IMG/VR virus record: IMGVR_UViG_3300021090_000057
Location: 1-40,512 of that record
Length of the DNA stretch: 40,512 nucleotides
DNA from: a virus
Strand: one strand, 5' to 3'
Made by a program: the position numbers and the translations under genes. The notes under the pieces were generated by a model. That model searched no databases and was not told the origin of the DNA. It saw nothing but the letters and a program-made list of their open reading frames with translations. Below are positions 11,458 through 32,641 of this stretch, in pieces; the first letter of the stretch is position 1, and each line of letters starts with the position of its first letter.

Positions 11458-11572
11458 TCTTGTCCTTCTTCCGGAAGCGAGATCCAAACAAGGCGAAATC
11501 TTGTGTTCCCGGGGAGCTCCGATCGAATACAAGAAATCTTGTCCTTCAGCTGGGCTGGATATCCAAACAAGA
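11458..11572. repeat. TCTTGT-N24-ACAAGA array A (three units)
   Basis: Units at 11458-11493 (right half ACAAGG), 11499-11534 and 11537-11572, each with exactly 24 bases between the half-sites and 2-5 bases between units. Spacers contain internal palindromes such as TCCGGA, GGAGCTCC and GGATATCC. The array begins 4 bases after the stop of the membrane protein at 11576-11782. Confidence 0.8.
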
Positions 11573-11575
11573 TTG

Positions 11576-11782
11576 TTACTTCCTTTTTTCAATTGAAAAA
11601 CCAAGCATGAGAATCAAAGTCGCAAACAGCACGTGTCCATCTGAAAAAGCAGCGAGGGCGCACAATGAAGTAAAAAGGTAAATCCAACAAAGTGGCTCCT
11701 GTGACCACTCTCGGACCCGATCAACAAAAGCCATCATTGTTTCAATAAAAAGACCGCGAATATTTCGAAGGGAATTTATCAT
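11576..11782 (-). CDS. Small membrane protein downstream of the large terminase
   Basis: The ATG at 11782 (MINSLRNIRGLFIETMMAF) gives 68 residues with one or two hydrophobic stretches (WIYLFTSLCALAAF and LFATLILMLGFSI) and a basic end. There is no strong ribosome site; a TATAAT lies just upstream. It sits between repeat arrays A and B, which makes it look like an inserted cargo rather than a core late gene. Function unknown. Confidence 0.45.
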   Translation of the reverse strand: MINSLRNIRGLFIETMMAFVDRVREWSQEPLCWIYLFTSLCALAAFSDGHVLFATLILMLGFSIEKRK

Positions 11783-11806
11783 GATCCAATTATACTCATG
11801 CAGCTT

Positions 11807-11881
11807 TCTTGTATGGCGCCAGGTCCGCCGGCAGAGACAAGACAGTCTTGTCCCCGAGCTCAGCTGGATATCCAAACAAGA
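11807..11881. repeat. TCTTGT-N24-ACAAGA array B (two units)
   Basis: Units at 11807-11842 and 11846-11881, both with 24-base spacers. The first spacer begins ATGGCGCCAGGTCCGCC, identical to spacers in arrays C and G; the second ends GGATATCCAA as in array A. The array ends 4 bases from the stop of the large terminase. Confidence 0.8.
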
Positions 11882-11884
11882 TTT

Positions 11885-13813
11885 CTACAACCCAAACTCA
11901 TCCGAATTCACGTACTCCTGGTACCGGGTCTGCTCGCGCAGTGGCTGGATCCGGAACAAACCATCGATGCCGGCAGCCAGCAGGTCCACGCGCTTTGTGT
12001 CGCCGGCGTGTTTCTTCGAAATCATAATATTTTCTTTTGTATCGACAATCTCCTGCGCGTTGCTCACACACCAGGTGAGCAGCGGCGATCCATCGTGTAC
12101 AAGTTTTCCACTGGCTACCGCCTCCCGAAATAATTTTGTTGGCTCATTGAGATTCGGCATCGTCTGCCGCACTTCGATGGTGGTATAGCCCAGATCATCC
12201 AGCTCGTTCTTCAGATGTGTCGCGTTGTATGGATCATAACAAAATTCATGCATCTGCCAGCCATTCAGCGCCGCGTAATGATACTTCAGCAGCCTGGTCA
12301 TTGTTCGTTTTTTTTCTTTTTCATCATCCACAGCCAATTCATCGGCGAGCAGCTTCCCGTTGATGGCTTCGATCTGATCGATCAATGTTTGATAATCGGT
12401 CACATCTCCCTGGGTGATCGTCAGCCAACCGGCTTTCGCCCAATCCCGATAGGGGATCTTGTCTGTTTTCCGGTGTCGATCGACCGCGCCCTCCGGCATG
12501 AATCCGTGAGCTGTGATCCCGATCCGATCATTCGGCAGTGCGAACACATACCCAAGCGCTGTGAGATCGATCTTCTTGGAGAGATCGCCGCCCACGATGC
12601 ACAAGAGTCCGCGCGTCATTCCCAGGAATGCTTCACGCGACACCGCGCATTTGTCCCACTGGCTTTGCTGGCTGCCCTCACCCACCATGTAGTCGCCCAT
12701 GTAGCTGTGCTCATTGCCGTGCTGCCATTTATTTAAGTTCTTGATCCGGAACGAACGGATCTTCTCCGGAATTTTCGAACCGAACGCAGTGTCATGCTGC
12801 TGCTTTAATTTCTCCAACCCTTTCGGGGTGCTCGCGCGCAGTGGATTGGACTTAATCCAATTACGAGGATCGTGCTCATCATCATGCTCATCCATTTCGC
12901 GGATGATGACAAAATAACGTTCGTTTTTCGTCGCGTCGTCTTTATCGCTCACCGCTCCCTCGAGGATCAGCTTGCAGTATTCGTATTCCTGATGACATGG
13001 GCTCTCGACATCATCGCCCGCGGTGGTGATCGTAAAGATCAACGGCTGCGCCCTCTGTCCCTGCGCAGTAGACATCAGATCAAATAATTTGGATGTTGGG
13101 TGAGCATGATACTCATCGATGAATGCACATGACGGATTGAATGAATCTTTGTTCTTGACTTCACCCGAGAAGGCTTTCATTTCGCCACCGCGCGTCCGAT
13201 GGCTCATCTCGTACTTGGCAATGCGTAAGCGTTTGCGAAGGTCCCGGCTTTTTTCTCCCATCGTCATCGAGTAGTTATACAACACGCGCGCCTGGCTGCG
13301 GTCCACTGCCGTGCAATAGACCGAGGGTGATGCCTCCATATCTCCCACCATCATATAGAGTCCAATGCCCGCGCCGCGCGTGGTCTTGGCATTCTTGCGA
13401 GCTTCGGTCACGAATGCCATATTGAATCTGCGCAGGCCTGTTTCACGGCCATTGCTACGCTTGATTTTCTCCAACCTGGAGACCCAGCCGAAAATGCAGC
13501 TCACTTCGAAAACATGGGCGGGAATCAAATCAATCGGCTGCCCCGCAAATTGACCTTCCACGTGTACCAGATGCTTGAACCATTCTTTCGAAACAAAGAT
13601 TGCCTGTTTCTCATCGAAAATCCATTGCCACTCCGGATCGCGCGGCGGGACCGGTCTGCCCGTTGCCTTTTCGATTCGCCTGGCGAGTAATCCCGGCAGC
13701 TGCCCAGCGCTCGCCAGGTCATAAAGATGACGCAAACATGCAAGCTGTTCCCATCTGCCTGTGACGATGGTTTGCTCCACCGCGTTCACTGCATACTGAG
13801 TGGCCGGATGCAT
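11885..13813 (-). CDS. terL: Terminase large subunit
   Basis: This 642-residue ATPase/nuclease motor starts at an ATG with GGAGTAGG upstream. The ATPase domain has a Walker A-type loop ARKNAKTT (residues 138-145) and Walker B CAFIDE (229-234), with an ITTAG coupling motif later. The C-terminal nuclease has GGDLSKKIDLTALG near residue 425 and later acidic clusters. This is the Terminase_1 (HK97-type) family, which translocates DNA into the procapsid and cuts it. It is unusually followed immediately by a repeat array instead of the portal gene. Confidence 0.95.
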   Translation of the reverse strand: MHPATQYAVNAVEQTIVTGRWEQLACLRHLYDLASAGQLPGLLARRIEKATGRPVPPRDPEWQWIFDEKQAIFVSKEWFKHLVHVEGQFAGQPIDLIPAHVFEVSCIFGWVSRLEKIKRSNGRETGLRRFNMAFVTEARKNAKTTRGAGIGLYMMVGDMEASPSVYCTAVDRSQARVLYNYSMTMGEKSRDLRKRLRIAKYEMSHRTRGGEMKAFSGEVKNKDSFNPSCAFIDEYHAHPTSKLFDLMSTAQGQRAQPLIFTITTAGDDVESPCHQEYEYCKLILEGAVSDKDDATKNERYFVIIREMDEHDDEHDPRNWIKSNPLRASTPKGLEKLKQQHDTAFGSKIPEKIRSFRIKNLNKWQHGNEHSYMGDYMVGEGSQQSQWDKCAVSREAFLGMTRGLLCIVGGDLSKKIDLTALGYVFALPNDRIGITAHGFMPEGAVDRHRKTDKIPYRDWAKAGWLTITQGDVTDYQTLIDQIEAINGKLLADELAVDDEKEKKRTMTRLLKYHYAALNGWQMHEFCYDPYNATHLKNELDDLGYTTIEVRQTMPNLNEPTKLFREAVASGKLVHDGSPLLTWCVSNAQEIVDTKENIMISKKHAGDTKRVDLLAAGIDGLFRIQPLREQTRYQEYVNSDEFGL

Positions 13814-13825
13814 CCTACTCCATCG

Positions 13826-13951
13826 TTATTTAACCTGACACATAGTAAGCACCGATTGCAACAACTCCTCTGCAACAGTATATGCATCGCTGCTTAACTT
13901 ATGGCGTACGATATCGCCGGGTCTCAAACTCACATATTGATCTTGATTCAT
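13826..13951 (-). CDS. Small 41-residue protein between terminase subunits
   Basis: The ATG at 13951 has AAGGA upstream. The product (MNQDQYVSLRPGDIVRHKLS start) contains a RPGDIVRHKLSSDAYTV strand pattern like small SH3-barrel phage proteins and stops 12 bases before the large terminase start. Functional assignment is not possible. Confidence 0.55.
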   Translation of the reverse strand: MNQDQYVSLRPGDIVRHKLSSDAYTVAEELLQSVLTMCQVK

Positions 13952-13966
13952 AGCTATATCCTTTCA

Positions 13967-14428
13967 TCAATCAAACTTCTCCCCGAATTCATCTTTGGGC
14001 GGTTCATCCGCGCGCTTTTTGATCAAACGCGTGCGCGCGTCCGGAGTGAAACCTAATCTCTCCGAATATTCCAGGATCCGCCGCATATAGGTTTGCAGGA
14101 TTCGGTGATCATCAATTGTGAAACGCGTCTTCGAAGAAATCTTCTTGTATTTCGATACCCCTTCGCAGAACAATGCCAGGATCTCACTATCCAGCGCATC
14201 GAGCATATCCTTGCCACCATTCAGCCCGGCGATCTCAGTGATTTTCTTATCCCAGATCTCGCGCGCTGATTTGCTCAGCCAGATCGGAGGCTGGATGCTC
14301 GATTTATCCTCGCGCTCGAAGGCTTTTGCAGCTTCCTCGCGCGCTGATTTCTCTTTCGCAGTCCAGTGTTTTCCTCCATTTTTCTTCCCCACATCCATGG
14401 TTTTCGCAGCAACGGTCCTGGCAGGCAT
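13967..14428 (-). CDS. terS: Terminase small subunit, P27-like
   Basis: This 153-residue protein has a basic N-terminus, then a helical core (IWLSKSAREIWDKKITEI, ILALFCEGVSKYKKI) and a C-terminal basic tail with PPKDEFGEKFD. The W.s..Ar..W pattern is typical of phage P27-family small terminases. These recognise the packaging start site. It lies between the HNH nuclease and the large terminase, the order found in cos-packaging phages. Confidence 0.85.
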   Translation of the reverse strand: MPARTVAAKTMDVGKKNGGKHWTAKEKSAREEAAKAFEREDKSSIQPPIWLSKSAREIWDKKITEIAGLNGGKDMLDALDSEILALFCEGVSKYKKISSKTRFTIDDHRILQTYMRRILEYSERLGFTPDARTRLIKKRADEPPKDEFGEKFD

Positions 14429-14561
14429 CTCAGCTCATGACCTCAACTCAACCCCAAAAACCATTGAAAGCGGATTGGGGACACTTTCACGCGTTGGCAG
14501 CCACCGCCGTTCTATCCCCTCCGCTCGAAACTTTTTTTGAGGGGGGCTATAGATATCGTGA
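14429..14561. other. Gene-free gap between small terminase and HNH nuclease: candidate packaging (cos) region
   Basis: No ORF fits here. The notable feature is an inverted repeat CCCCTC (14516-14521) / GAGGGG (14539-14544) with an A/T-rich centre, followed by a run of six G. The neighbouring HNH and terS genes are those that flank cos in HK97-like phages. I cannot place the cut points, so this remains a candidate. Confidence 0.35.
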
Positions 14562-14903
14562 TTACACATGCCAAACTTCTTCTGCTGTCTTGTTGGAATG
14601 ATGCGGCTTGCATAATGATTGCAAGTTACCCTGGTCAAAGAACAGCTGCGGATCGCCATGGTGCGGCGTGATGTGATCGACCTCGGATGCCATCACATGC
14701 GCATTCGTTGCCAAGCATTCAACACACCACGGCTCCTTGGCCAGCTGGGCCACACGCATAGACTTCCACTGCTGACTGTTGTACAGCTTCTTGACCGCAG
14801 GATCACGGACCACGATCTTGGTCGAATGAGCAAGGCATCTCCCACCCTTGACCAGCACATTGCAGCCTGGATAGGTGCACTTCCGCAGGGACGCGTATGG
14901 CAT
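14562..14903 (-). CDS. HNH endonuclease (terminase-associated)
   Basis: This 113-residue protein has an N-terminal zinc-like CTYPGCN...C...H cluster (residues 9-26), then CVECLA, the catalytic EVDHI (H at about 77) and NLQSLCKPHHSNKT, a standard HNH arrangement. Small HNH proteins next to terminase are required for cos cleavage and packaging in several phages (HK97 gp74 type). It begins 4 bases downstream of the holin-like gene stop. Confidence 0.9.
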   Translation of the reverse strand: MPYASLRKCTYPGCNVLVKGGRCLAHSTKIVVRDPAVKKLYNSQQWKSMRVAQLAKEPWCVECLATNAHVMASEVDHITPHHGDPQLFFDQGNLQSLCKPHHSNKTAEEVWHV

Positions 14904-14906
14904 TGC

Positions 14907-15224
14907 TCAGCGCAGACTCCGATAGCCAGGCGTGCGCCGCCTGTTGAGGATGAATGCAGTACCGACACCTGCCAACGCCAGCACGATCAGGTGGATGATT
15001 GTCAAGAGTATTTGGTCAGGAATAAACGCGAGCAACTTTAAACCAAACTCAAATACAGTGACTACAATCGCAGCCAGGACAGCAGCCAGTTCAACGGCAA
15101 AGCCTCGTAGGTCTAATCCCCATCGCACAAACACATAGCTGAAAGCGGCAGTAAGCAACGACGTGATCAATCCCAGGATCAAGATCTTGGCTTCATCAGG
15201 CAATGCGACGAAAGAAGCAAACAT
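14907..15224 (-). CDS. Holin-like membrane protein, first gene of the late operon
   Basis: The ATG at 15224 has GGAG 9 bases upstream. The 105-residue product has three hydrophobic segments (residues about 13-34, 40-62, 70-92) and a basic, Arg-rich C-terminus (LNRRRTPGYRSLR). This plan fits class I holins or other small phage membrane proteins, but no signature is decisive and no endolysin was found beside it. It is the first gene after the hairpin leader at 15251-15353. Confidence 0.5.
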   Translation of the reverse strand: MFASFVALPDEAKILILGLITSLLTAAFSYVFVRWGLDLRGFAVELAAVLAAIVVTVFEFGLKLLAFIPDQILLTIIHLIVLALAGVGTAFILNRRRTPGYRSLR

Positions 15225-15250
15225 AATTATTCTCCTTGTTTAAACGACAA

Positions 15251-15353
15251 CACCCGACATAGATAATCTATATCGGGTGCATCAACCGACAGACCGTCTC
15301 AGTCTAAAACCGAGACTGCAACAAGTATTCAATTGGCGTTGGCATTATAGCTG
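15251..15353 (-). promoter_or_regulatory. Late promoter and hairpin leader, copy 2
   Basis: A minus-strand TATAAT (15344-15349) is followed by GCCAACGCCAATTGAATACT, close to the sequence in copy 1, then a hairpin with CAGTCT (15300-15305) and AGACTG (15313-15318), then a near-perfect 29-bp hairpin (15251-15279; CACCCGA/TCGGGTG plus ATAGAT/ATCTAT). An overlapping GTCTC/GAGAC pairing makes alternative folds possible. The -10 abuts the stop of the upstream gene. Confidence 0.6.
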
Positions 15354-15668
15354 ACAACGCTGCGCCAGCTGCAGAGCGGCTGCTCTTGCAATCTTCCACT
15401 GCTTCAGGTAATGGACACAACTCAGATAAGTGCATTTGATCCTGCGCGCATCCCCGATGATCTCAGCACGGATGTGGACGCTCTCCGGAGGAATGACACT
15501 GGACGCAAGAGAAACTTCATACACAGCCAGCGCAGTCAACTGTTGACCCTCGTCTTGCACATAATGCAGCTCACCAATGATATGACTGTGTGGATAATCG
15601 CTGAGCTGATCACCTCTCACGCACTCACCAGTGCATAGAAAAAACTTTCGAATCTTCGATGTGTTCAT
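15345..15668 (-). CDS. Hypothetical 107-residue protein
   Basis: The ATG at 15668 (MNTSKIRKFFLCTGE) lies 3 bases after the stop of the coiled-coil gene; no clear ribosome site is visible, so coupling is likely. The product is strand-rich in the middle (ELHYVQDEGQQLTALAVYEV) and ends in a helix with several Cys and Arg. It is the last gene of the early operon before the late promoter at 15344. Unknown function. Confidence 0.55.
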   Translation of the reverse strand: MNTSKIRKFFLCTGECVRGDQLSDYPHSHIIGELHYVQDEGQQLTALAVYEVSLASSVIPPESVHIRAEIIGDARRIKCTYLSCVHYLKQWKIARAAALQLAQRCQL

Positions 15669-15670
15669 GT

Positions 15671-16273: not shown

Positions 16274-16274
16274 G

Positions 16275-17246
16275 TTAGCTTGCCATCATTTTCATAAAAG
16301 CATCCACGACATTTGGATCGTAAAGTTCACCGGACTTCGCCTGGATATAGTCCAGAGTGAATTTTTTCGATAACGCAATCCGATAAGGCCGGTTGCTTGT
16401 CATTGCATCGAACACATCCACGACCGTGAACAACCGCGCACACTGCGGGATCTCATATTCTCTCAAACCTCTTGGATAACCGCTTCCATTCCACAATTCA
16501 TGATGACAGTAGGGAATATCCAGCGCGCACCCCTGCAGAAACTTGATTGGAAAAAGGATTGTATAAGCAATCTGTGGATGCAGCTGCATTAATTCAATCT
16601 CCTCAAGATCCAGCTTGCCAGGTTTATGCAGGATGGCATCCGAGACAGCCATCTTGCCTATATCATGCAAGAGCGCACCGCGCCGGAATCCAATTAACTC
16701 GCTGTCTCTGAAATCCATTGCCCGTGCCAGCTTATCAGCCAAGCCTACGAGACGGAGAGAATGACCAACTGTTTCTTTGTCACGGAATTCCAATGCCCTT
16801 GACCAGCTCTGCAACGTCTGATCATAAACTTGCAGGACTTCAGCGTTAGCCTTTCCAAGTTTATGGATAAGTTTTTTTTGCATCGTGGTGTTTTGAAACA
16901 CAGAGACAAAAGTGTCCTGCTCAAACGAATACACTGAAATGTCGAACCACATTTCAAGTTCAGGGAGATACTGCTCAAAACGCTCATGCCGTTGTGTCCT
17001 TGCTACACGCGCATAAGTTTCCAGTAGGAGTGGATTGCTTTTATGGATCCCGGGAATCACTTCGGAAACTTGCCTATTCACCACATCTTTCAGTCCGGTT
17101 TGTAATTCAAATGCCGGGTTGACAGAAATATATTTCCAATCCACCGCCTTTTCCCCATCATAAATGATCTGACAATAAGCCAGACCGTCGATCATGTGCT
17201 CGAACAAAACTTTGTGCAGATGGCCGTTTGGTTTATTAAATGGCAT
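16275..17246 (-). CDS. PAS/HD-GYP phosphodiesterase-like protein
   Basis: I place the start at the ATG at 17246 (MPFNKPNGHLHKVLFEHM), because a terminator-like hairpin occupies 17296-17327; the longer frame from 17336 would begin before it. The 323-residue product has a PAS-like sensor (residues about 10-120: LAYCQIIYD, YISVNPAFELQTGL) and an HD-GYP domain with LLHDIGKMAVSDAILHKPG (HD at 194-195) and HHELWNGSGYP (248-258). All key metal-binding residues look intact. HD-GYP enzymes hydrolyse cyclic di-GMP or cGAMP. The domain is rare in phages and pairs here with a GGDEF-type protein at 28138-28662. Confidence 0.85.
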   Translation of the reverse strand: MPFNKPNGHLHKVLFEHMIDGLAYCQIIYDGEKAVDWKYISVNPAFELQTGLKDVVNRQVSEVIPGIHKSNPLLLETYARVARTQRHERFEQYLPELEMWFDISVYSFEQDTFVSVFQNTTMQKKLIHKLGKANAEVLQVYDQTLQSWSRALEFRDKETVGHSLRLVGLADKLARAMDFRDSELIGFRRGALLHDIGKMAVSDAILHKPGKLDLEEIELMQLHPQIAYTILFPIKFLQGCALDIPYCHHELWNGSGYPRGLREYEIPQCARLFTVVDVFDAMTSNRPYRIALSKKFTLDYIQAKSGELYDPNVVDAFMKMMAS

Positions 17247-17268
17247 TGATGATGATCCGTTTACTTCC

Positions 17269-17327
17269 GAACAGACCTGCTCCAACATTAAAAAGGGACA
17301 GACCTCATAAAGAGAGCAGGTCTGTCC
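17269..17327 (-). terminator. Terminator/attenuator hairpin ahead of the HD-GYP gene
   Basis: On the minus strand, GGACAGACC (17327-17319) pairs perfectly with GGTCTGTCC (17304-17296) and is followed by five T (17294-17290): a rho-independent terminator. The same 5' arm, extended to 14 bases (17327-17314), can instead pair with GAGCAGGTCTGTTC (17282-17269) with one G-U pair. Two mutually exclusive folds suggest regulated read-through into the HD-GYP gene. Confidence 0.65.
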
Positions 17328-17386
17328 ACTTCGCATTCTAATGCATTATCAAGACAAGGCAATAGGCGATTAGGTTACAGTTTTTG

Positions 17387-17402
17387 TCTCCGACGTCGGA
17401 GA
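17387..17402. repeat. Perfect 16-bp palindrome TCTCCGACGTCGGAGA after gene 17413-17739
   Basis: The palindrome lies 11 bases past the stop of the minus-strand gene ending at 17413. Its core TCCGACGTCGGA recurs at 30471-30484, also just past a gene end. No T-run follows on either strand, so it is not a classical terminator. Confidence 0.6.
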
Positions 17403-17412
17403 TTGGCTTGTG

Positions 17413-17739: not shown

Positions 17740-17754
17740 CGCTTGTTCTCCTTT

Positions 17755-18574: not shown

Positions 18575-18601
18575 TTTACGCATCCCCTTTCGCCCAGGGG
18601 G

Positions 18602-18620: not shown

Positions 18621-18669
18621 GCATCCTGGGACTTGTCTCGCGGCTGATCAGGACTGGTTTTGGCATCGC

Positions 18670-19564: not shown

Positions 19565-19939
19565 TCACTTCGCATGCCCGTTGAATTGCGACAGTCCCAG
19601 GGATGTGAGAACTGCCGAAGCAGCATACTCACCCGTTTCGAGCGCATTCACCGCGCGCAGTTCCGCATCCGCTTTGTGAAGTGCTGCCTGAGCTTCATCC
19701 CGTTGTTTGATGATCTTCGCCTTGATGGCTTTCAGTTTTGCGCCACTGGCTTTGACCAATGCCACATGCGCGGTCACCGACTCAGGCAGATGAATGCCCA
19801 CATATTTCGCCGCGCCATTATCAGCATACGAATACCAATATGGACCATGCCCATCGCCGGTGTTGCATTTGCAGCCCGGCTTTCCACACTTCCGATACTG
19901 CTGGCGATATTGCACGCCATTAACTTTGATATCACTCAT
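19565..19939 (-). CDS. DUF6788-like zinc-binding protein
   Basis: This 124-residue protein begins MSDIKVNGVQYRQQYRKCG and has the family signature YRKCGKPGCKC followed by HGPYWYSY, then YVGIHLPE. The four Cys suggest a zinc knuckle. The second half is a charged helix. DUF6788 proteins occur on mobile elements and have no known function. It overlaps the J-domain gene upstream by 4 bases. Confidence 0.75.
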   Translation of the reverse strand: MSDIKVNGVQYRQQYRKCGKPGCKCNTGDGHGPYWYSYADNGAAKYVGIHLPESVTAHVALVKASGAKLKAIKAKIIKQRDEAQAALHKADAELRAVNALETGEYAASAVLTSLGLSQFNGHAK

Positions 19940-20609: not shown

Positions 20610-20617
20610 AAATTTAT
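20610..20617. repeat. Target site duplication, left copy (AAATTTAT)
   Basis: The 8 bases AAATTTAT flank the IS on the left and repeat at 22581-22588 on the right. IS1595-family elements make 8-bp duplications. Confidence 0.9.
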
Positions 20618-20622
20618 GGTAA

Positions 20623-20811
20623 CTATATACATGTCTCACCTGATTGATTATCTCCGCCCTCTTTCTCTACCCAAAATTTTGGGTAATCAAGAATGCCGCT
20701 TTCAAGGTCTGCTATGTAAATTTCATAGCAATCACAGCACACAAGAGAGCCATCTTGATAGATGTCTGTTTTGCATAAAGTGCATGTTCTATTTGGGGTT
20801 ATTGACTCCAT
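20623..20811 (-). CDS. IS passenger: small Cys-rich protein
   Basis: The 62-residue product begins MESITPNRTCTLCKTDIY and has paired CTLC and CCDC motifs, a likely zinc ribbon. AAGGA lies 9 bases upstream of the ATG. The gene ends within the left terminal repeat, so the repeat provides its stop. Function unknown; a role in transposition or target choice is a guess. Confidence 0.6.
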   Translation of the reverse strand: MESITPNRTCTLCKTDIYQDGSLVCCDCYEIYIADLESGILDYPKFWVEKEGGDNQSGETCI

Positions 20812-20884
20812 GTTTCTTTTTCCTTTTCTTCTTGGGTTTCGGTTTCTCGATTTCCTTTGGAGGCACTTTGATTAGTTTCTTCAT
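20789..20884 (-). CDS. Possible Lys-rich 31-residue ORF of the IS
   Basis: From the ATG at 20884 the frame reads MKKLIKVPPKEIEKPKPKKK and on to a stop at 20789, overlapping the next gene. The extreme Lys/Pro content suits a nucleic-acid-binding peptide, but no good ribosome site is visible and the A-rich run may simply serve the next gene. Confidence 0.35.
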   Translation of the reverse strand: MKKLIKVPPKEIEKPKPKKKRKKKHGVNNPK

Positions 20885-20897
20885 CAGGTCATCAAAC

Positions 20898-21860
20898 TTA
20901 CCGAAAGAGTCTGAGTTGCTTGTATTCGGTTTTTTGGATGAGTTGGGCATACTTCAATCGCTTTCCCGCAACCATCGAAAGCACTTCGGTAAACCGTGTG
21001 CTGTCGTTGCCACGTCTATTATTGAATCGGAATGTTTGCTCATCAAGATAACGAAACAGATGAGCCGCTTCACAACTTACATAAGTCCCGCGAAGGGAAC
21101 GCTTGAACAAAGACCAGTAATTTTCAATGCCATTCGTGTGAATGTTTCCCTTCACGTATTCGGTAGCATGGTCAATGCTTTCATGGATGAATTCATCCAT
21201 GCCGTTATAGGATTGCAGGGCATCCGTGAAAAGGTTAGAACCTGCTTCAACGCTCTTTCGGATTTCGGGTTGCAGGGTTTTCTTCTTGGTGTTTCTCACC
21301 ACTTTTGTTTTTACCTTGCTGGATTTATCCCCCGCGTTCCTTTCCAACAGACCAAACACAATAGCCTTACCAACCGTCCCGCGCCCTTGAACTCCCATTG
21401 CTTCGCGCTTCCACTTGTGCATGTTTTCAGCCTTGCCGCCTATGTAGGTTTCATCGGCTTCAACTTCGCCACTCAGGGTTTCAAATGTTCCCGATTGCAT
21501 AGCCAAGCGGATGCGATGCAACATAAACCAAGCGGTCTTTTGAGTCACTCCAAGAGCGCGGGCAATCTCGCACGAGCTAATACCGTTCTTCGCATTGGCA
21601 ATCATCCAAACACAGGGAAGCCATTTATTCAAGCCGATAGGACTATTCTCGAAGATCGTACCGACCTTGACGCTAAACTGCTTCTTGCAGGCTTTACACT
21701 TCCAAGTTTGGCGGGTGGTCAGATATGAGTGTTCTTTGCCTCCACACTTGGGGCATACAACCCCATCAGACCAACGCAGGCTTACAAGATAGTCATGCGC
21801 TACGTCTTTATCGGCAAAGTAGATTATGGCTTGCTGTAGTGTTTGCGGTTTGTCAGTCAT
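20898..21860 (-). CDS. IS1595-family transposase
   Basis: The likely start is the ATG at 21860 (MTDKPQTLQQAIIYFAD), which overlaps the previous stop and has AAAAGG upstream. The 320-residue protein has an N-terminal zinc ribbon (CPKC at 36-39, CKAC at 55-58), an HTH (ISSCEIARALGVTQKTAW), and an ISXO2-type DDE-like domain: EADETYIGG (D136), LFTDALQSY (D213) and NGIENYWSLFKR (N243/E246). All expected blocks are intact, so it is probably active. Confidence 0.93.
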   Translation of the reverse strand: MTDKPQTLQQAIIYFADKDVAHDYLVSLRWSDGVVCPKCGGKEHSYLTTRQTWKCKACKKQFSVKVGTIFENSPIGLNKWLPCVWMIANAKNGISSCEIARALGVTQKTAWFMLHRIRLAMQSGTFETLSGEVEADETYIGGKAENMHKWKREAMGVQGRGTVGKAIVFGLLERNAGDKSSKVKTKVVRNTKKKTLQPEIRKSVEAGSNLFTDALQSYNGMDEFIHESIDHATEYVKGNIHTNGIENYWSLFKRSLRGTYVSCEAAHLFRYLDEQTFRFNNRRGNDSTRFTEVLSMVAGKRLKYAQLIQKTEYKQLRLFR

Positions 21861-22170
21861 CAGGGTGTAACCTTTTCCAAATTTCATTTACTATGAGTTT
21901 CGGTTCTTCTGGTTTAGGCTGTTCTTCTGTTTCCAGATCAGGATTTATTTCTTTGAGAAACTTTCTATTGACTCTTGACTTGGAAGCGTACAAGCAATTC
22001 AAGGCACGTATTATCAACTGGAAATCTTTACGGGCATCACCTGTAAGAAAAGACTCGAACACTTCGCGTTCGCCTTTGTATGCTCGAAACTTCTTGTTGA
22101 ATTCTGGTTCGGGGGCGGGTTTTCGTCCCGCCCCTTCTCTCTTGCCACCATGCGTTTTTTTGTTCATCAT
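21853..22170 (-). CDS. IS passenger: GGKREGAGRK-type DNA-binding-like protein
   Basis: This 105-residue protein starts MMNKKTHGGKREGAGRK, an N-terminal motif common in small mobile-element proteins that look DNA-binding, followed by a helical core (DFQLIIRALNCLYASKSR) and a C-terminal acidic/proline tail. It overlaps the transposase start. Function unknown. Confidence 0.65.
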   Translation of the reverse strand: MMNKKTHGGKREGAGRKPAPEPEFNKKFRAYKGEREVFESFLTGDARKDFQLIIRALNCLYASKSRVNRKFLKEINPDLETEEQPKPEEPKLIVNEIWKRLHPDD

Positions 22171-22174
22171 GGCT

Positions 22175-22459
22175 TTACTTCCAGAGTTTCCAGCCGTCTA
22201 CGGGTTCATCTTTGACATCGGTCACAATCTGGGGGAACCACATGCGGAGCCATCGCTTATTGCTTTCGTGCCACTCGCAAAGCGTTCCGTCCTCGAAGTG
22301 GCTATTGCACAGTTGTTTGATTTCAACCGCAAAGCGTTCGGTTTTTTTGCCATGCATGTTTTCGTCAACGACGGTAACAAAATTGGCTTGATAAATAACC
22401 TTGTCGTCAAAACCCTTGACTCCGTTGTAGTACCTGACTTCGTGAATTTGCTTGTTCAT
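22175..22459 (-). CDS. IS passenger: hypothetical 94-residue protein
   Basis: The start ATG (MNKQIHEVRYYNGVKGF) has AAAGGA upstream. The product is strand-rich with two Cys in LCNSHFEDGTLCEWHE and Trp-rich C-terminal half. It is the first gene of the IS transcript. No family recognised. Confidence 0.6.
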   Translation of the reverse strand: MNKQIHEVRYYNGVKGFDDKVIYQANFVTVVDENMHGKKTERFAVEIKQLCNSHFEDGTLCEWHESNKRWLRMWFPQIVTDVKDEPVDGWKLWK

Positions 22460-22584
22460 GATTGCGTTTCCTTTCGTTTGTTAGTTTCTTGTCCGTTGAA
22501 TTCAGTATACTACAATCAAGAGCAGAAAACATTACAAATTCATTGCAGGAATTCACAGGTGAGACATGTATATAGTTACCAAAT

Positions 22585-22923: not shown

Positions 22924-23600
22924 TCTTCCTCGCTTTCAGCATCGTCATGCTGCGGTCTTGGAATTCCCTTGATTTCTTCGAGCCAGGACCGCGGCATCTC
23001 GTTGTTCTGAATCCGTATAATTGCCAAGCCTAGTCTTTCACCATCTCGCAGATCGCCGACATGCGCCTTGATCAATTCAGGACTGACATGCTCCAGGAGA
23101 GAGATCTGGGATGCCTTCGGTTCTCCAATCATCACAGATTGGCACATCGCCAAATTTTTCCCAAATGTCACGCCATGGGTCAAATAGAGCGTTGAAGGAG
23201 TGCCAGGTCGCGGAATTTCCGCGACCTGGGTGTCTACTACTACTACTGAATCTATTAATCTATTACTTAAGTCTATAGTAGTAGTAGTAGTAGTAGGGCC
23301 AGAACGCGGAATTTCCGCGACCTGGAATTTGGCGGTTTCCAATTTTGGCTGTGTGAAACCTGGCAAAAGGTCTGCCCCGGGGATCCATAAGACCCGTCCA
23401 TGTGCGGCAATCTGCTTTCCGATGAGTCCCATGCCCTTGAGCTGCTTCAGCCCGTCGCGTGCGGTTTCCTGGTTGAGACCGGTCCACGTGCGGACTTCAT
23501 CCAGATCTAAAGCGGCTCGGGCGAATAGGAAAGCCAAAACGATCTGCGCAAGACTGCCCTTGGTTGAACGCACCATTAAGATTTGATGATCTGTGGACAT
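22920..23600 (-). CDS. Winged-helix protein, candidate replication initiator containing the origin
   Basis: The ATG at 23600 (MSTDHQILMVRSTKGSLA) gives 226 residues. Residues about 15-75 look like a winged helix (LDLDEVRTWTGLNQETARDG, LKGMGLIGKQIAAHGRVLWI). The middle (residues 93-131) has the peptide QVAEIPR twice, flanking a Thr run and an LSNRLIDSVVVV stretch. The DNA under this part carries two 27-bp palindromes and an A/T-rich centre, as in lambda-like phages whose origin lies within the initiator gene. The C-terminus is acidic. No recognised initiator family, so the role is inferred from origin-like DNA and position. Confidence 0.55.
   Translation of the reverse strand: MSTDHQILMVRSTKGSLAQIVLAFLFARAALDLDEVRTWTGLNQETARDGLKQLKGMGLIGKQIAAHGRVLWIPGADLLPGFTQPKLETAKFQVAEIPRSGPTTTTTTIDLSNRLIDSVVVVDTQVAEIPRPGTPSTLYLTHGVTFGKNLAMCQSVMIGEPKASQISLLEHVSPELIKAHVGDLRDGERLGLAIIRIQNNEMPRSWLEEIKGIPRPQHDDAESEEE
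23203..23325. other. Candidate replication origin inside the winged-helix gene
   Basis: Two palindromes of 27 bp centred 96 bp apart (23203-23229, perfect, half CCAGGTCGCGGAA; 23299-23325, two changes) flank a segment with (CTA)4 (23234-23245), an A/T-rich stretch and (TAG)7 (23276-23296). Iteron-like palindromes around an A/T-rich, hairpin-forming core inside a DNA-binding protein gene fit an origin. Confidence 0.55.
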
Positions 23601-24366: not shown

Positions 24367-24369
24367 AGC

Positions 24370-27400: not shown

Positions 27401-27411
27401 AATGTCCGTCC

Positions 27412-27843: not shown

Positions 27844-27844
27844 C

Positions 27845-28662: not shown

Positions 28663-28694
28663 ATTGGTAGATCTCCTTGGTATTTATTTTGGAT

Positions 28695-28919
28695 TTATGC
28701 TTCTTGCGAATCCCGCTTTGTGCCCTGCTTGTAGATCGTGCCTTTGCAGATCATCTCGCAGTCGTAATCGATCTTTGTCCAGGTGGGATAAATGACATTG
28801 AGAAAATCATGCAGGCCTGCCCAGAGCATGAAGAGCGGTCCCGGAAAACTTTCAACCTTCCCGCTGTCATAAGTGACTGTATAGTTGGCTGTGAGGGGTA
28901 ACATGTCTTTTATGTTCAT
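28695..28919 (-). CDS. Hypothetical 74-residue protein, first gene of the early operon
   Basis: The ATG at 28919 (MNIKDMLPLTANYTVTYDSG) has AAAGGAGATCCACCACA upstream, one mismatch from the leader shared with its neighbours. The product is strand-rich and Trp/Tyr-containing. It is the first gene of the leftward early operon, downstream of a candidate promoter at 28944-28973. Function unknown. Confidence 0.6.
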   Translation of the reverse strand: MNIKDMLPLTANYTVTYDSGKVESFPGPLFMLWAGLHDFLNVIYPTWTKIDYDCEMICKGTIYKQGTKRDSQEA

Positions 28920-28943
28920 TGTGGTGGATCTCCTTTTGCTTTT

Positions 28944-28973
28944 AGTAAAGCTTGATGTAAAATCAGATTGCAA
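28944..28973 (-). promoter_or_regulatory. Candidate early leftward promoter
   Basis: On the minus strand TTGCAA (28968-28973), an 18-base spacer and TTTACT (28944-28949) precede the gene at 28919. The -35 overlaps the foot of the large hairpin at 28971-29021, so hairpin formation or opposing transcription could influence it. The match to consensus is moderate. Confidence 0.35.
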
Positions 28974-29021
28974 CTGCCCTGCTGGGCTCTTCGTGGTAGA
29001 TCTGCATCAGCAGGGCAGTTG
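28971..29021 (+). ncRNA. Strong hairpin with a loop complementary to a shared ribosome site; candidate antisense RNA
   Basis: CAACTGCCCTGCTG (28971-28984) and CAGCAGGGCAGTTG (29008-29021) form a perfect 14-bp stem. The 23-base loop (28985-29007) contains GTGGTAGATCT (28993-29003). If made from the plus strand, that loop is perfectly complementary to AGATCTACCAC in the leader of the gene at 28144 and to 10 bases of the leaders of the GGDEF gene and hicB. No transcription data; it may instead be a leader structure of the integrase mRNA. Confidence 0.5.
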
Positions 29022-29028
29022 TACTTTC

Positions 29029-29085
29029 ATCGGCGACGGTCATCGCCGATCCGCATAACAGGCTGGGGGGCTATCCCTGCCTGTT
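29029..29085 (+). promoter_or_regulatory. Two further hairpins ahead of the integrase gene
   Basis: ATCGGCGA (29029-29036) pairs with TCGCCGAT (29043-29050), and AACAGGC (29057-29063) with GCCTGTT (29079-29085) plus an inner GGG/CCC. With the larger hairpin at 28971-29021 they make a three-stem leader that ends 26 bases before the integrase ATG. Confidence 0.5.
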
Positions 29086-29111
29086 CATGCCATTCCAACA
29101 CCAGGTGAAAA

Positions 29112-29969
29112 ATGAATGACGATCTCGAAAACTTCCTCGCTTCCAATCCCTATTCGGATTCAACACTTCGCACCTATCGAGACATTCTGAGGCGCATCTT
29201 CGCAAGGAGCCAAGATCTCGCGAAGATGACAGCCTCAGAACTACTAACTATTTTGAAGCAAAGCAGTTGGGGAAACGCTCGCCAGTGTCTTGCATTGGCA
29301 GCGACACAAAAATTTCTTTCGTGGAAATATGGACATGCACATCCCGCCTTGATCGCCAAGCTGAAACGTATCCAGGGGAAGCCGCAAAGGTCGCTCGATC
29401 CTGAAACCGCCCTGAAGCTGCTTGCCTCGTTTGACCCCTACGCCGCAAAAGGTGCCCGAGATCTCGCAATATGTTCACTCGTGCTGGATACTGGTCTGCG
29501 AGAGTCTGAAATTTGCAGACTGCAACAGGCATACACAAATCTTGAGCATCGCACATTGCAAGTCATCGTGAAAGGCGGTCAGTGGGAGGCGGCAATCTTT
29601 GGCGAAGCGACTGCCATGCGGATTGATCGTTGGATGTCGTTCCGTAAGATTGCCGATGGTCAGGGCTTTCTATTCACGCATGTTCAAACAGGAAAAGGGC
29701 TTACGCCCGAGGGACTCTATTCGATTGCCAGGGAATGGGGTCGGAAGATTGGCATACAGCTTTGTTTTCACGACCTGCGCCGTTCGACGGCTGTGATGGG
29801 TGTCTTGAATGGCTTATCTGAACGCGCCATGATGGAGCTGTATCGCTGGAAATCGTCTACGATGATCAAGCGTTACACCAGGAATCTTAGATTGGAGCAA
29901 CTTAGACAATTTCTGGTGGTAGATAGCCTTCTCAAGCTTCCTCCGCCTGATGACCAAGAAAAGGTATAA
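29112..29969 (+). CDS. int: Tyrosine integrase
   Basis: This 285-residue site-specific recombinase begins MNDDLENFLASNPYSDSTLR with AGGTGAAA upstream. Its catalytic domain has Arg130 (TGLRESEI), Lys154 (VKGGQ), HDLRR (His220, Arg223), Trp246 in place of the second His, and nucleophile Tyr255 (KRYTR). The N-terminal SAM-like domain (residues 1-90) is compact, and no arm-binding domain is obvious. The attP candidate lies 30 bases after its stop. It integrates and, with an excisionase-like partner, excises the prophage. Confidence 0.93.
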   Translation: MNDDLENFLASNPYSDSTLRTYRDILRRIFARSQDLAKMTASELLTILKQSSWGNARQCLALAATQKFLSWKYGHAHPALIAKLKRIQGKPQRSLDPETALKLLASFDPYAAKGARDLAICSLVLDTGLRESEICRLQQAYTNLEHRTLQVIVKGGQWEAAIFGEATAMRIDRWMSFRKIADGQGFLFTHVQTGKGLTPEGLYSIAREWGRKIGIQLCFHDLRRSTAVMGVLNGLSERAMMELYRWKSSTMIKRYTRNLRLEQLRQFLVVDSLLKLPPPDDQEKV

Positions 29970-29996
29970 TCTTCATACCCAAAAATTAACTTGGGA

Positions 29997-30046
29997 ACGC
30001 TTGCTTCCCAAGCAAGATATCGTGGGTTCGAGTCCCATCACCCGCT
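29997..30046 (+). other. attP: attP core: 3' half of a tRNA-Gly(CCC) gene
   Basis: Bases 30000-30016 form an anticodon arm (stem CTTGC/GCAAG, loop TTCCCAA, anticodon CCC), 30022-30038 a T-arm (GTGGG TTCGAGT CCCAT), and 30039-30046 the 3' acceptor strand and discriminator (CACCCGCT). The D-arm and 5' acceptor strand are missing, so this is not a complete tRNA gene. A partial tRNA 3' end beside an integrase is the usual sign of attP. Confidence 0.85.
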
Positions 30047-30113
30047 TTCGCTAGGTAAAACTAAAGCTATTTAGTTGTTAAGGTGCTTACTCACCTGACG
30101 CCTAGCCAAAGCT

Positions 30114-30152
30114 GGGCGCCTGCTGTTTGCCGCAGCGGGCGCCTTGCGTTTT
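30114..30152 (+). terminator. Terminator after integrase/attP
   Basis: GGCGCC (30115-30120) and GGCGCC (30138-30143), with inner GCTG/CAGC pairing, form a strong stem followed by TTGCGTTTT. It lies between converging integrase and HTH genes. The T-run is interrupted, so efficiency is uncertain. Confidence 0.55.
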
Positions 30153-30154
30153 AA

Positions 30155-30373
30155 CTAGGATTGATCGGACTGACCTTGCTCGTTCTCTTTCATGAGCTTC
30201 AACACGCGCTCGAGCTCGCTGACCGGAATAAAAACGGGTGAGGTCCTGCCTTGGAAAGGATCTTTCTTGAAACCTTTCACCTTGCCGGACTGCACCCATT
30301 TGGTCACAGTGAAGCGCGAGACACCTACTTTGGCTGCAAATTGTGGAACTGTCATCAGGTCTGTCTTAGTCAT
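30155..30373 (-). CDS. HTH (excisionase/AlpA-like) protein 1
   Basis: From the ATG at 30373 the product has 72 residues (MTKTDLMTVPQFAAKVGVSR) and is a MerR-like winged helix: VPQFAAKVGVSRFTVTKWVQ as recognition region, then GKVKGF and a basic wing, and an acidic C-terminal helix. Such small proteins act as excisionases or DNA-binding regulators. A GTG two codons upstream is possible. The promoter -10 lies only 6 bases from the start, so the mRNA is probably leaderless. Confidence 0.7.
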   Translation of the reverse strand: MTKTDLMTVPQFAAKVGVSRFTVTKWVQSGKVKGFKKDPFQGRTSPVFIPVSELERVLKLMKENEQGQSDQS

Positions 30374-30379
30374 ACGCAC

Positions 30380-30408
30380 ATCTTAGTATACTTATGCTCT
30401 GCCGTCAA
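30380..30408 (-). promoter_or_regulatory. Promoter of HTH protein 1 (leaderless mRNA type)
   Basis: Minus-strand TTGACG (30403-30408), 17-base spacer and TAAGAT (30380-30385). Only six bases separate the -10 from the ATG at 30373, so transcription would start at or next to the start codon. Confidence 0.6.
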
Positions 30409-30425
30409 GGGTTGAAACATTGCAA

Positions 30426-30468
30426 TCTTGTAATACAAAGAATCAGATCCAGCGCGCGGAAAACAAGA
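30426..30468. repeat. TCTTGT-N31-ACAAGA unit D, next to palindrome TTCCGACGTCGGAA
   Basis: TCTTGT (30426-30431) and ACAAGA (30463-30468) enclose 31 bases. The perfect 14-bp palindrome TTCCGACGTCGGAA (30471-30484) follows, ending 5 bases from the stop of the membrane protein at 30490. Confidence 0.6.
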
Positions 30469-30489
30469 CGTTCCGACGTCGGAAAAGAT

Positions 30490-30987
30490 TCACCCTCTTG
30501 GGATCCATGCCAGGAAAAGGATGAGCAAAACAATAACTGGTAGAAGAAATAAGGCAATCCTTTCCAAACGAACAAACCTCTTGACAATCGGGGTGTTTTT
30601 TTCAATGGCTTGCAGAATTGCACTGATGTACATGGATTCCATTTCTTCGTCGTTCATGTTTTGAAAAGTTTCCGTCAACTGTTTCCAGACCGCATTTAAT
30701 GGTGGATACACATAAACGGGCCACATTCCTGCGATGCACACGATGATGAGCGCGAGATAGAGCAGAGCGATCACGATTAGCACACCCTGGTAAACAGGCA
30801 GCCAGGTAGCAGAGATCGGCTTGGTAAAAAGCTGAAGTGCGCCGATCAGAGAAACGATCAAACTAGATGAGCCGAATATCGTCTTGATCGTTGCCTTGAT
30901 CGAATCGATGCCATTCGATTGACCCTGATACATCCGCTGCATTTCGATGAGTGGAAAGTCGAGATAAGAATGTTTTGTTGTAGTCAT
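30490..30987 (-). CDS. Membrane protein with three hydrophobic segments
   Basis: The ATG at 30987 (MTTTKHSYLDFPLIEMQRMY) has AAAGGAG 6 bases upstream. The 165-residue product has hydrophobic segments near residues 40-58, 68-92 and 145-163, with a soluble stretch containing NMNDEEMESMYISAILQAIE between the second and third. It lies in the lysogeny region beside hicBA, where phages often keep exclusion or superinfection-immunity membrane proteins. No family recognised. Confidence 0.55.
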   Translation of the reverse strand: MTTTKHSYLDFPLIEMQRMYQGQSNGIDSIKATIKTIFGSSSLIVSLIGALQLFTKPISATWLPVYQGVLIVIALLYLALIIVCIAGMWPVYVYPPLNAVWKQLTETFQNMNDEEMESMYISAILQAIEKNTPIVKRFVRLERIALFLLPVIVLLILFLAWIPRG

Positions 30988-31010
30988 GTGCAACTCCTTT
31001 AGGACTCAAT

Positions 31011-31136
31011 ATGCCAAACGAGAATTCAAAACCAAAACCTCAACCGAAGCCAATTCCGCGTCCAACACCGCCCGTGCCTGAAGAGCCACAGGAAGTGAAA
31101 GGCGGTGATAATCCCAAGCCACTGCCGCCAAAGTGA
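31011..31136 (+). CDS. Possible proline-rich 41-residue protein
   Basis: The frame from the ATG at 31011 reads MPNENSKPKPQPKPIPRPTP and ends PLPPK. AGGA lies upstream, but only 23 bases separate this start from the divergent ATG at 30987, leaving no room for separate promoters. It is coding-like in composition, but an anonymous low-complexity ORF; keep as tentative. Confidence 0.35.
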   Translation: MPNENSKPKPQPKPIPRPTPPVPEEPQEVKGGDNPKPLPPK

Positions 31137-31150
31137 TTTTAGCAGAGCGA

Positions 31151-31186
31151 TCTTGTCCCTGGGACCCAGCTGCCAGGCATACAAGA
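31151..31186. repeat. TCTTGT-N24-ACAAGA unit E
   Basis: A single unit with a 24-base spacer (CCCTGGGACCCAGCTGCCAG start), followed by a TCTCC/GGAGA hairpin (31188-31202) and a degenerate ACGAGA. It lies between the proline-rich ORF and the hicB promoter. Confidence 0.7.
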
Positions 31187-31211
31187 ATCTCCGAGTTGGA
31201 GAAACGAGACA

Positions 31212-31240
31212 TTCAACGTTGAATAGCCGCGGGGTATAAT
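31212..31240 (+). promoter_or_regulatory. hicBA promoter with palindromic operator
   Basis: The perfect 12-bp palindrome TTCAACGTTGAA (31212-31223) lies 11 bases upstream of TATAAT (31235-31240), where a HicB-type repressor could block RNA polymerase. The leader then carries AAGGAGATCTACCAA before the hicB ATG. Confidence 0.5.
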
Positions 31241-31265
31241 TTAGGAACGAAAGGAGATCTACCAA

Positions 31266-31478
31266 ATGACTCAGACTCTCACTGCCATCCTCCACAAAGA
31301 AGATGATCTGTACGTAGCCGATTGCCCTGAAGTGGGGACCGTCAGCCAGGGACCAACTGTCGAAGAAGCGATTGCTAATCTCAGAGAAGCGACTGAACTT
31401 TATCTTGAAGAATTCCCACTCCCCGAAATAAACCATCCGTTATTGACCACCTTCGAGGTGGCGATAACCCATGCCTAA
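31266..31478 (+). CDS. hicB: HicB-type antitoxin
   Basis: This 70-residue protein has the partial RNase H-like HicB fold: LTAILHKEDDLYVADCPEVG, then TVEEAIANLREATELYLEEF. HicB neutralises HicA and represses the operon; the DNA-binding part is missing in this short form, so operator binding may need HicA or another protein. Its end overlaps hicA by 8 bases. The start has AAGGAGATCTACCAA upstream. Confidence 0.85.
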   Translation: MTQTLTAILHKEDDLYVADCPEVGTVSQGPTVEEAIANLREATELYLEEFPLPEINHPLLTTFEVAITHA

Positions 31479-31707
31479 TCTTCCGCACCTATCGGGTCGG
31501 GAAATTATTCGCGCGCTCGAGCGCCTTGGCTTTGTGCAGGCCCGCCAGCGCGGCAGCCACGTGGTCCTGAAGAAGTCCACGCCAGAGGGAACTGTAGGTT
31601 GCGTAGTGCCATTGCATAGCGAAGTAGCAATCGGGACTTTGCGCAGCATTCTCAAACAGGCTCATGTTTCAGCAGAAGAATTTATCCAGGCAGTGAAGGA
31701 GGGTTAG
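31471..31707 (+). CDS. hicA: HicA-type mRNA interferase toxin
   Basis: This 78-residue protein follows the HicA (YcfA) pattern: LSGREIIRALERLGFVQARQ, then RGSHVVLKK with the catalytic His in GSH, and VVPLHSEVAIGTLRSILKQA. HicA cleaves mRNA when free of HicB. The antitoxin-first gene order is common in phages. It ends 10 bases before repeat array F. Confidence 0.87.
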   Translation: MPNLPHLSGREIIRALERLGFVQARQRGSHVVLKKSTPEGTVGCVVPLHSEVAIGTLRSILKQAHVSAEEFIQAVKEG

Positions 31708-31717
31708 CGCGCGGCAA

Positions 31718-31797
31718 TCTTGTCCCAGCAGTTCCGGATCCGGAGATATCCAAACAAGATATCTTGTTTAGCCGGCGGACCAGGTCGCAGCGCAAGA
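31718..31797. repeat. TCTTGT-N-ACAAGA array F (two units)
   Basis: Units at 31718-31759 (30-base spacer, containing the 12-bp palindrome TCCGGATCCGGA) and 31762-31797 (24-base spacer, right half GCAAGA). They meet as the perfect palindrome AACAAGATATCTTGTT. The second spacer is an inverted relative of the ATGGCGCCAGGTCCGCC spacer. It lies between converging hicA and an HTH gene. Confidence 0.7.
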
Positions 31798-31842
31798 AGC
31801 GCGCGAAAACAGAACATGTGTTCGGCGCGCGAAAAAAGCCTA

Positions 31843-32103
31843 CTATTCTGCTTTTGTTTCGGGGGGATTTGTAGGGGTGTAGAAAAAGCCGCGTTGAGTC
31901 CGACGCAGCTCGAAGAACGCATCCACATCGCTTTTTGGGATGCGCCAACGAGATTTGATATGCGGATTGATCCGGTAGGCATTAGGAAAATGACCAGCCC
32001 CTGCCCAGCGCGCAATCGTTGCAGGACTCACGCCCAGCAGCTCCGCGACCTCTTCACAGGACAAAGCTTCAGGTTCAACCAATACCATCTCCATCTGTAG
32101 CAT
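31843..32103 (-). CDS. HTH (excisionase/MerR-like) protein 2
   Basis: The 86-residue product has CEEVAELLGVSPATIARWAG, then GHFPNAYRINPHIKSRWRIP and DVDAFFELRR, a helix-turn-helix with wing as in helix_turn_helix_17/excisionase proteins. It starts at the ATG at 32103, or at residue 4. Its promoter -10 is 6 bases away, like HTH protein 1. It may be an excisionase or a regulator of the hicBA/late switch. Confidence 0.75.
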   Translation of the reverse strand: MLQMEMVLVEPEALSCEEVAELLGVSPATIARWAGAGHFPNAYRINPHIKSRWRIPKSDVDAFFELRRTQRGFFYTPTNPPETKAE

Positions 32104-32109
32104 GATTTA

Positions 32110-32137
32110 ATTATAACGTTTGTTCTATTAAATTCAA
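32110..32137 (-). promoter_or_regulatory. Promoter of HTH protein 2 (leaderless mRNA type)
   Basis: Minus-strand TTGAAT (32132-32137), 16-base spacer and a perfect TATAAT (32110-32115), with six bases to the ATG at 32103. Confidence 0.65.
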
Positions 32138-32641
32138 TTATTCCGCCCCTTACAAAACCATTTCATGCGCGTGTAGTCAATAAGCCTCGCGACCCCGGCC
32201 CGCGCGCTCGTTCCCTTCGTGATGGCACAGCCCCCTCCAGCCCCTGCCAGCCCTCTAAGGTCACGGAGCTCCACGTGAGATGTAGTGGCTACGCGATGTA
32301 TATGATAGACCAAGGCACACCGCGCGGGGAAGTGGCTAGATCGATCTAGGATGCCCGGAATCGATGTCACAAACGTGTCACATTTCGCGTGGCGACGAAA
32401 AGTAACCCAAACTACCTTCAAACTGAAAATGCCCCTAGATGCCCACAGGAGCGTCTTCCTCGAATCGAGGGTCTATCCGAAGCCGCAAATACAAGACGGC
32501 TCTTGTATGCTCAGCTCGAATGGCCTGAAACAAGATGATCTTGTATGGCGCCAGGTCCGCCTGGTGAAACAAGAATAATCTTGTTCGCTCGAGCGGACCG
32601 ATCGTAAACAAGAAAGCCTGTCACTGATTACTGTCCACTGC
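32138..32641. other. Gene-free stretch of about 500 bases upstream of the HTH promoter
   Basis: No credible gene is seen on either strand. It contains a GC-rich segment, the perfect 14-bp palindrome CTAGATCGATCTAG (32336-32349), a pair of TGTCACA motifs (32365-32382) resembling the operator at 18602-18620, and repeat array G (32501-32613). It looks like a control and repeat region between the late operon end and the lysogeny genes. Confidence 0.5.
32501..32613. repeat. TCTTGT-N23/24-ACAAGA array G (three units)
   Basis: Units at 32501-32535 (23-base spacer), 32539-32574 (24) and 32579-32613 (23), separated by 3 and 4 bases, plus an unpaired ACAAGA at 32491-32496. The middle spacer begins ATGGCGCCAGGTCCGCC, as in arrays B and C. 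The array lies 29 bases beyond the stop of the last late gene. Confidence 0.8.

Follow-up and report, generated by a model that had tools for sequence, protein, structure and literature searches.

What are the short inverted repeats that recur between the genes of an uncultured phage? The question is raised by IMG/VR virus record IMGVR_UViG_3300021090_000057, whose whole length of 40,512 nucleotides was analysed (a 40.5-kb virus record; referred to below as the window) and whose gene content is that of a tailed temperate phage. Each repeat, here called a unit, has the form TCTTGT-spacer-ACAAGA. An original prediction, made from the letters alone, had described fifteen units in seven clusters, and the count was reproduced. 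Thirteen exact matches to TCTTGT-N(20-34)-ACAAGA were found, compared to a mean of 0.03 and a largest value of 1 in 100 dinucleotide shuffles, which excludes equal frequency in shuffled sequence; two further units, A1 and F2, each carry one mismatch. A near-match at 22487, lying inside an insertion sequence of the IS1595 family, was left out of the count. The spacers are chiefly of 24 nt, with some of 23, 30, and 31 nt, in agreement with the lengths first described, and sequence comparison in the window bore out that blocks are recycled between them. The mixed orientation also described carries no information, the arms forming a perfect inverted repeat. We tentatively take the units to be double-stranded DNA sites, recognised by a protein, that would serve as gene-boundary and exchange sites in a clade of temperate phages, with a protein of the family DUF6788 as the best candidate partner.

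Relatives were collected by a terminase search of IMG/VR, which gave 29 related loci, and by a scan for the array pattern, which gave 95 stretches, many of them AT-rich single matches judged to be chance. The pattern search in related phages, which the original prediction had proposed, showed the family to be conserved and enriched at gene ends: it is present in about 25 related uncultured phage records, temperate phages with about a dozen repeats each. Unit-bearing records (contigs of at least 20 kb with the early region covered) held 5–16 units each, and near-complete unit-rich phages held 10–16, at gene ends. The reversed control pattern gave 0 matches, and more distant terminase relatives had no units. 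In a de novo scan for inverted hexamers, TCTTGT alone was outstanding in the unit-rich phages, and no comparable family with fixed spacing appeared in the unit-less ones. Searches of plasmid and phage collections returned distant matches to the terminase large subunit (TerL) only, and nothing closely similar at the DNA level to the first 25 kb. The exact block TCTTGTATGGCGCCAGG had 13 chance-like matches and no full unit in GTDB genomes; this search covered one block, and chromosomal units with other blocks are possible. Two related phage genomes lie together on a contig of 67.7 kb, IMGVR_UViG_3300021090_000015 (L033, L039): one has 13 units and a DUF6788 gene, whereas the other lacks the gene and has a single unit.

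The interiors were compared as a set of 119 distinct spacers, or 105 once near-duplicates were removed. A 24-nt spacer is laid out as 3 nt, three contiguous palindromic hexamers, and 3 nt (3+6+6+6+3). Palindromic hexamers numbered 152 in the 105 nonredundant spacers, compared with 42.8 in shuffles; counted along the 36-bp unit, palindrome centres were most frequent at positions 12, 18, and 24. Of 88 units with a 24-nt spacer, 59 had a palindrome in two or more of the three slots and 27 had one in every slot, whereas shuffles gave 9.3 and 0.8. Strictly contiguous pairs of hexamer palindromes occurred at 4.65 per kb inside units versus 0.20 per kb elsewhere. The words form a limited vocabulary (TGGCCA, CAGCTG, CTCGAG, GATATC, GCCGGC, GGCGCC, CGATCG, CTGCAG, GGATCC, plus CCWGG and GGWCC), from which CTAG and GTAC are nearly missing. 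TGGCCA was found in all three slots and in 34 different contexts, mostly exactly at positions 10, 16, and 22. When pairs of units were compared, shared blocks stopped at slot ends, the common prefix peaking at 8–9 nt, falling to about 0 at 12, and rising again at 13–16. Most spacers of 30/31 nt have a central GATC, and the arms follow the consensus TCTTGTNY...RNACAAGA at a fixed distance. Inner palindromes had been noted in the original prediction; palindromic words are indeed present, but their arrangement in three contiguous slots, the main internal feature, had been missed.

It had also been proposed that every unit can fold into a hairpin within a hairpin. When 111 units were folded with RNA and DNA parameters, the outer stem was present in the predicted fold of 98, but with the arms fixed the spacers folded no better than shuffled ones (mean z +0.14 for RNA and +0.02 for DNA), so that the nested hairpin was not supported. 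Contacts were enriched only at distances 3 and 5, as loopless 6-bp palindromes predict. Among single-mismatch palindromes on the sense strand, G.U was compared with A.C and no asymmetry was observed (6 versus 7). The use of GGCC in the units followed its genome-wide avoidance (rho 0.83, p 0.011, n=8 records); across the whole window GGCC is strongly avoided (56 observed versus 152 expected), and in other phages of the group it ranges from 0.09 to 0.96 of expectation. Given fold z values near 0, the absence of G.U asymmetry, and the tracking of GGCC use, the interior looks to be selected as double-stranded DNA.

Clusters had been described as mostly starting 4–29 bases past gene stops. In the window the distances were about 4, 4, 11, 22, and 29 nt for genes of at least 60 amino acids (aa). 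Across the eight records used for position statistics, 26 of 51 clusters lay at most 30 nt after a stop reading into them, whereas random non-coding placements with conservative gene calling gave 14.2 ± 3.0, with a maximum of 21 in 200. The rule held even behind a TerL only 29% identical (G049). The further claim that clusters occur only in non-coding gaps was correct for the window but not for relatives G004, G007b, and G049, where a unit provides the last codons of the preceding gene. Units also bracket small accessory genes that turn over. At the junction after TerL, relatives carry at least five unrelated small open reading frames (ORFs), usually then followed by units and often bracketed by them; L031 and L037 have one of these ORFs without any unit.

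Unit positions were kept behind the same genes and their interiors replaced. Directly behind the DUF6788 gene, five different interiors were found (in the window, G002/G031, G003, G004, and G032), and at the end of the gene for a Whirly-fold protein, G002 has CGCCGGCG where G004 has GCCGCGGC; both positions are kept across diverged phages. When CCACCAGGTGG of L032 was set against TGCACCAGGTGCA of a similar unit in L131, the words had changed and were still palindromic. Palindrome pairs with both sides changed and complementary numbered 163 versus about 60 expected (a third of 179, by a simple independence estimate), a count that includes redundant comparisons and is indicative only. The covariation check suggested in the original prediction was positive to this extent, the inner palindromes staying complementary.

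The DUF6788 gene was present in 7 of 8 unit-rich records, the exception being a partial 21-kb contig, and in 0 of 13 unit-poor or unit-less ones; the contrast is weaker than these bare numbers, since a number of unit-less records are incomplete or cover chiefly structural genes. The most telling case is G007a (34 kb), which has the Whirly, helix-turn-helix (HTH), Xis, and integrase genes without DUF6788, and which carries a single unit with poorly formed palindromes. All 8 loci with near-full-length DUF6788 matches in viral contigs lay in unit-bearing phages, and in all but one of the unit-rich records holding the gene it is followed or overlapped by a unit. Four distant homologues were checked and had no such arrays. 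The structural model (pLDDT 88, pTM 0.58) consists of a small beta region with conserved Cys/His and a long helix. No paper naming DUF6788 was found in the literature searched. We regard the protein as the best candidate for a partner that would bind or mobilise the units.

The Whirly-fold protein was considered as another possible reader. Its model (pLDDT 91) had WHY1, StWhy2, MRP1/2, and PURA among the top matches, and no convincing match was found in Pfam, PHROG, or NCBIfam. Units follow the stop of its gene in most unit-rich phages; the gene is found without units too, and its candidacy was weakened by L261 and G007a, which carry it with none or one unit.

On the reading that we favour, a symmetric protein, at least dimeric, would recognise the inverted arms at their fixed distance, and the interior would be kept as a row of three short palindromes, identical in either orientation. 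The units would then be gene-boundary sites at which flanking gene cassettes, and units themselves, are exchanged. Exchange might proceed, in either orientation, through recombination or annealing where palindromic words between the arms match, and the phage-encoded DUF6788 protein may bind or mobilise the units. We place this role first because the units lie flush behind stops and bracket accessory genes that come and go. A narrower version is possible and more doubtful: selection would act on having three adjoining 6-bp dyads between the fixed arms, nearly irrespective of their sequence, and this row would be read as double-stranded DNA by the DUF6788 family and used for orientation-independent exchange at gene boundaries.

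Several points weigh against exchange. No recombinase beyond the ordinary integrase was identified, G032 has units without sharing it, and neither a product of exchange nor an empty site with precise ends was encountered. A recombinase working in three registers would be unusual. Comparison of the DUF6788 model with PDB gave no structural match, including none to a known DNA-binding protein, and DUF6788 and the units may go together through common descent within a small clade. At the Xis promoter at least, the 31-nt unit points to a role in regulation. Arm blocks are also shared within genomes to a modest excess (3.4% versus 1.4%, 4 of 500 shuffles).

Literature searches gave no described match to the unit family, and to our knowledge the pattern matches no known repeat family. 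The attC sites of integrons are gene-end sites with conserved boxes and a variable interior; IntI recognises them as a folded single strand, which has extrahelical bases and long complementary arms. The units resemble them in placement, boxes, and interior; unlike a structured single strand, they have inner palindromes that are loopless and not selected for folding. The closest described analogue is the dRS3 repeats, or neisserial intergenic mosaic elements (NIMEs), of Neisseria, which have the form ATTCCC(N8)GGGAAT, are 20 bp long, occur in almost 700 copies on the host chromosome, and are a phage integrase target with a proposed role in recombination (PMC3898611). Both families have 6-bp terminal inverted repeats, a variable interior of fixed length, and intergenic arrays. 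The units differ in their arms and in their spacers of 23–31 nt, they have no RS-like elements between them, and no palindrome grammar is reported for the N8 interior (PMC3898611).

The main rival to exchange is a stoperator- or operator-like role, in which a phage repressor would bind the arms genome-wide and, in the lysogen, stop elongating transcription at gene ends; the unit by the Xis promoter would be an operator. We consider this rather unlikely as the explanation, and both roles could exist together. Cluster A mycobacteriophages have 20–30 dispersed repressor sites, some at promoters and most not (PMC6550527), and the numbers of units at gene ends in near-complete unit-rich phages fit such a pattern. 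In 5 of the 8 records the Xis-gene promoter also has a unit upstream of it, at distances of 7, 17, 17, 18, and 27 nt from the -35 element. The spacing of these distances by roughly one helical turn is suggestive only, since several of these positions are homologous by descent. However, L261, L262, and L263 have no unit at this promoter, no repressor is perfectly linked to the units, and the three palindromic slots and the differences between interiors within a genome are left unexplained. The stoperators of L5 and Bxb1 are, like the units, tens of dispersed sites in a temperate phage, some at the early promoter (PMC6550527), but they are 13 bp long, nearly constant in sequence, and mostly oriented with transcription, whereas the units are 36 bp with symmetric arms and a changing palindromic interior.

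It is unlikely that the units are a self-spreading miniature element, comparable to repetitive extragenic palindromes (REPs) or miniature inverted-repeat transposable elements (MITEs), tolerated at gene ends and mobilised in trans, whether by DUF6788 or by an enzyme of the host. Variable copy number, presence or absence at orthologous junctions, the close succession of DUF6788 gene and unit, and the weak within-genome excess of shared arm blocks would be expected of such an element. Copies in one genome nevertheless share little past the 12 arm bases, no target duplication was seen, interior words change in place and stay palindromic, and the positions after the DUF6788 and Whirly genes persist across diverged phages. 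REPs and REPINs with RAYT are dispersed extragenic inverted-repeat units (PMC3116915), a description that also suits the present units, as does a possible single partner gene beside them. REPINs are conserved and predicted to form hairpins, whereas the units show no selection for folding. No RAYT-type transposase was found among the window proteins scanned (part of the ORFs), the IS1595 transposase and the tyrosine integrase being the only enzymes of this kind there. Of the suggestions made in the original prediction, sites for a DNA-binding protein are the best supported, with binding itself an inference, and the likeness to REPs extends to distribution only.

It is very unlikely that the units act in RNA as 3′-end hairpins for termination, processing, or stability, the last of which had been among those suggestions. 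The position after stops and the outer stem would suit them, as would the near relative L261, which has ordinary hairpins after its Whirly and HTH genes where others carry units; yet the spacers fold as shuffled ones do, the G.U test was negative, no T-run follows the units, and Rfam gave no match, and the hairpin reading was rejected. Intrinsic terminators (a GC-rich hairpin with a T-run) were as frequent in phages without units as in those with them, so the units are, as first stated, not canonical terminators. Nor are they CRISPR arrays, which was likewise stated: constant repeats with unrelated spacers are absent, the spacers being palindromic with recycled blocks, and no cas match was obtained in Pfam and PHROG scans of the window proteins. 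Arrays of restriction or methylation sites, acting as decoys or epigenetic marks, are hardly credible: the words are typical type II sites (CCWGG 42 versus CCSGG 12, GGWCC 13 versus GGSCC 4), but GGCC-avoiding phages avoid GGCC inside units too, the opposite of a decoy and the correlation by which decoys were ruled out, and other common type II words (CATG, CTAG, GTAC) are not enriched.

If the gene-boundary reading is correct, these phages would use sites that conserve their palindromic character rather than any single sequence, and the question arises how symmetry can be read when the sequence is not fixed. The modular exchange of genes at their boundaries in phages would become directly testable through a 36-bp site and one small candidate gene, and DUF6788 would acquire a function.

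Table. Units and associated genes in the window.
Feature	Position	Strand	Remarks
Unit A1	11458–11493	.	N24; right arm ACAAGG, one mismatch
Unit A2	11499–11534	.	N24; gtt-CCCGGG-GAGCTC-CGATCG-aat, clearest triple-palindrome spacer
Unit A3	11537–11572	.	N24
Unit B1	11807–11842	.	N24
Unit B2	11846–11881	.	N24; about 3 nt past TerL stop
TerL	11885–13813	minus	Terminase large subunit
Unit C1	19433–19467	.	N23
Unit C2	19471–19506	.	N24
Unit C3	19523–19558	.	N24; about 6 nt past DUF6788 gene stop
DUF6788 (PF20586) gene	19565–19939	minus	124 aa; conserved Cys/His, HGPYWY motif, predicted long helix
Tyrosine integrase	29112–29969		
Xis/Cox-like HTH protein	30155–30373	minus	72 aa; promoter adjoins unit D
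Unit D	30426–30468	.	N31; immediately upstream of Xis-like gene promoter
Unit E	31151–31186	.	N24
HicA-type toxin gene	31471–31707		
Unit F1	31718–31759	.	N30; about 10 nt past HicA stop
Unit F2	31762–31797	.	N24; right arm GCAAGA, one mismatch
HTH_17 (Xis/AlpA-like) protein	31843–32082	minus	79 aa; common to unit-rich phages, present in unit-poor ones too
Unit G1	32501–32535	.	N23
Unit G2	32539–32574	.	N24
Unit G3	32579–32613	.	N23; about 28 nt past Whirly-fold gene stop
Whirly-fold protein	32642–33115	minus	157 aa; predicted Whirly/MRP/PUR fold (ssDNA/RNA-binding fold)

Further phage genes in the window encode a portal and a P22-like major head protein. Directly past the integrase (about 29993–30046) lies the 3′ portion of a tRNA-Gly-like gene with CCC in the anticodon loop, and ARAGORN called no whole tRNA there; it is probably the phage attachment site and usable for host identification. 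Inside the phage, the IS1595-family insertion sequence spans 20617–22581; its terminal inverted repeats are perfect over 26 bp, and it encodes an ISXO2-like transposase on the minus strand (20898–21887). An HD-GYP-like (HD_5) phage protein is encoded at 16275–17336 and resembles response regulators that are cyclic di-GMP phosphodiesterases. The 27-nt near-perfect palindrome CCAGGTCGCGGAATTTCCGCGACCTGG is present in two copies (23203–23229 and 23299–23325) with 69 nt between them. After TerL in L047 (1166–1600) and in L030, inverted GTGAC/GTCAC motifs with small palindromes inside them recur in runs and may form a second repeat family.

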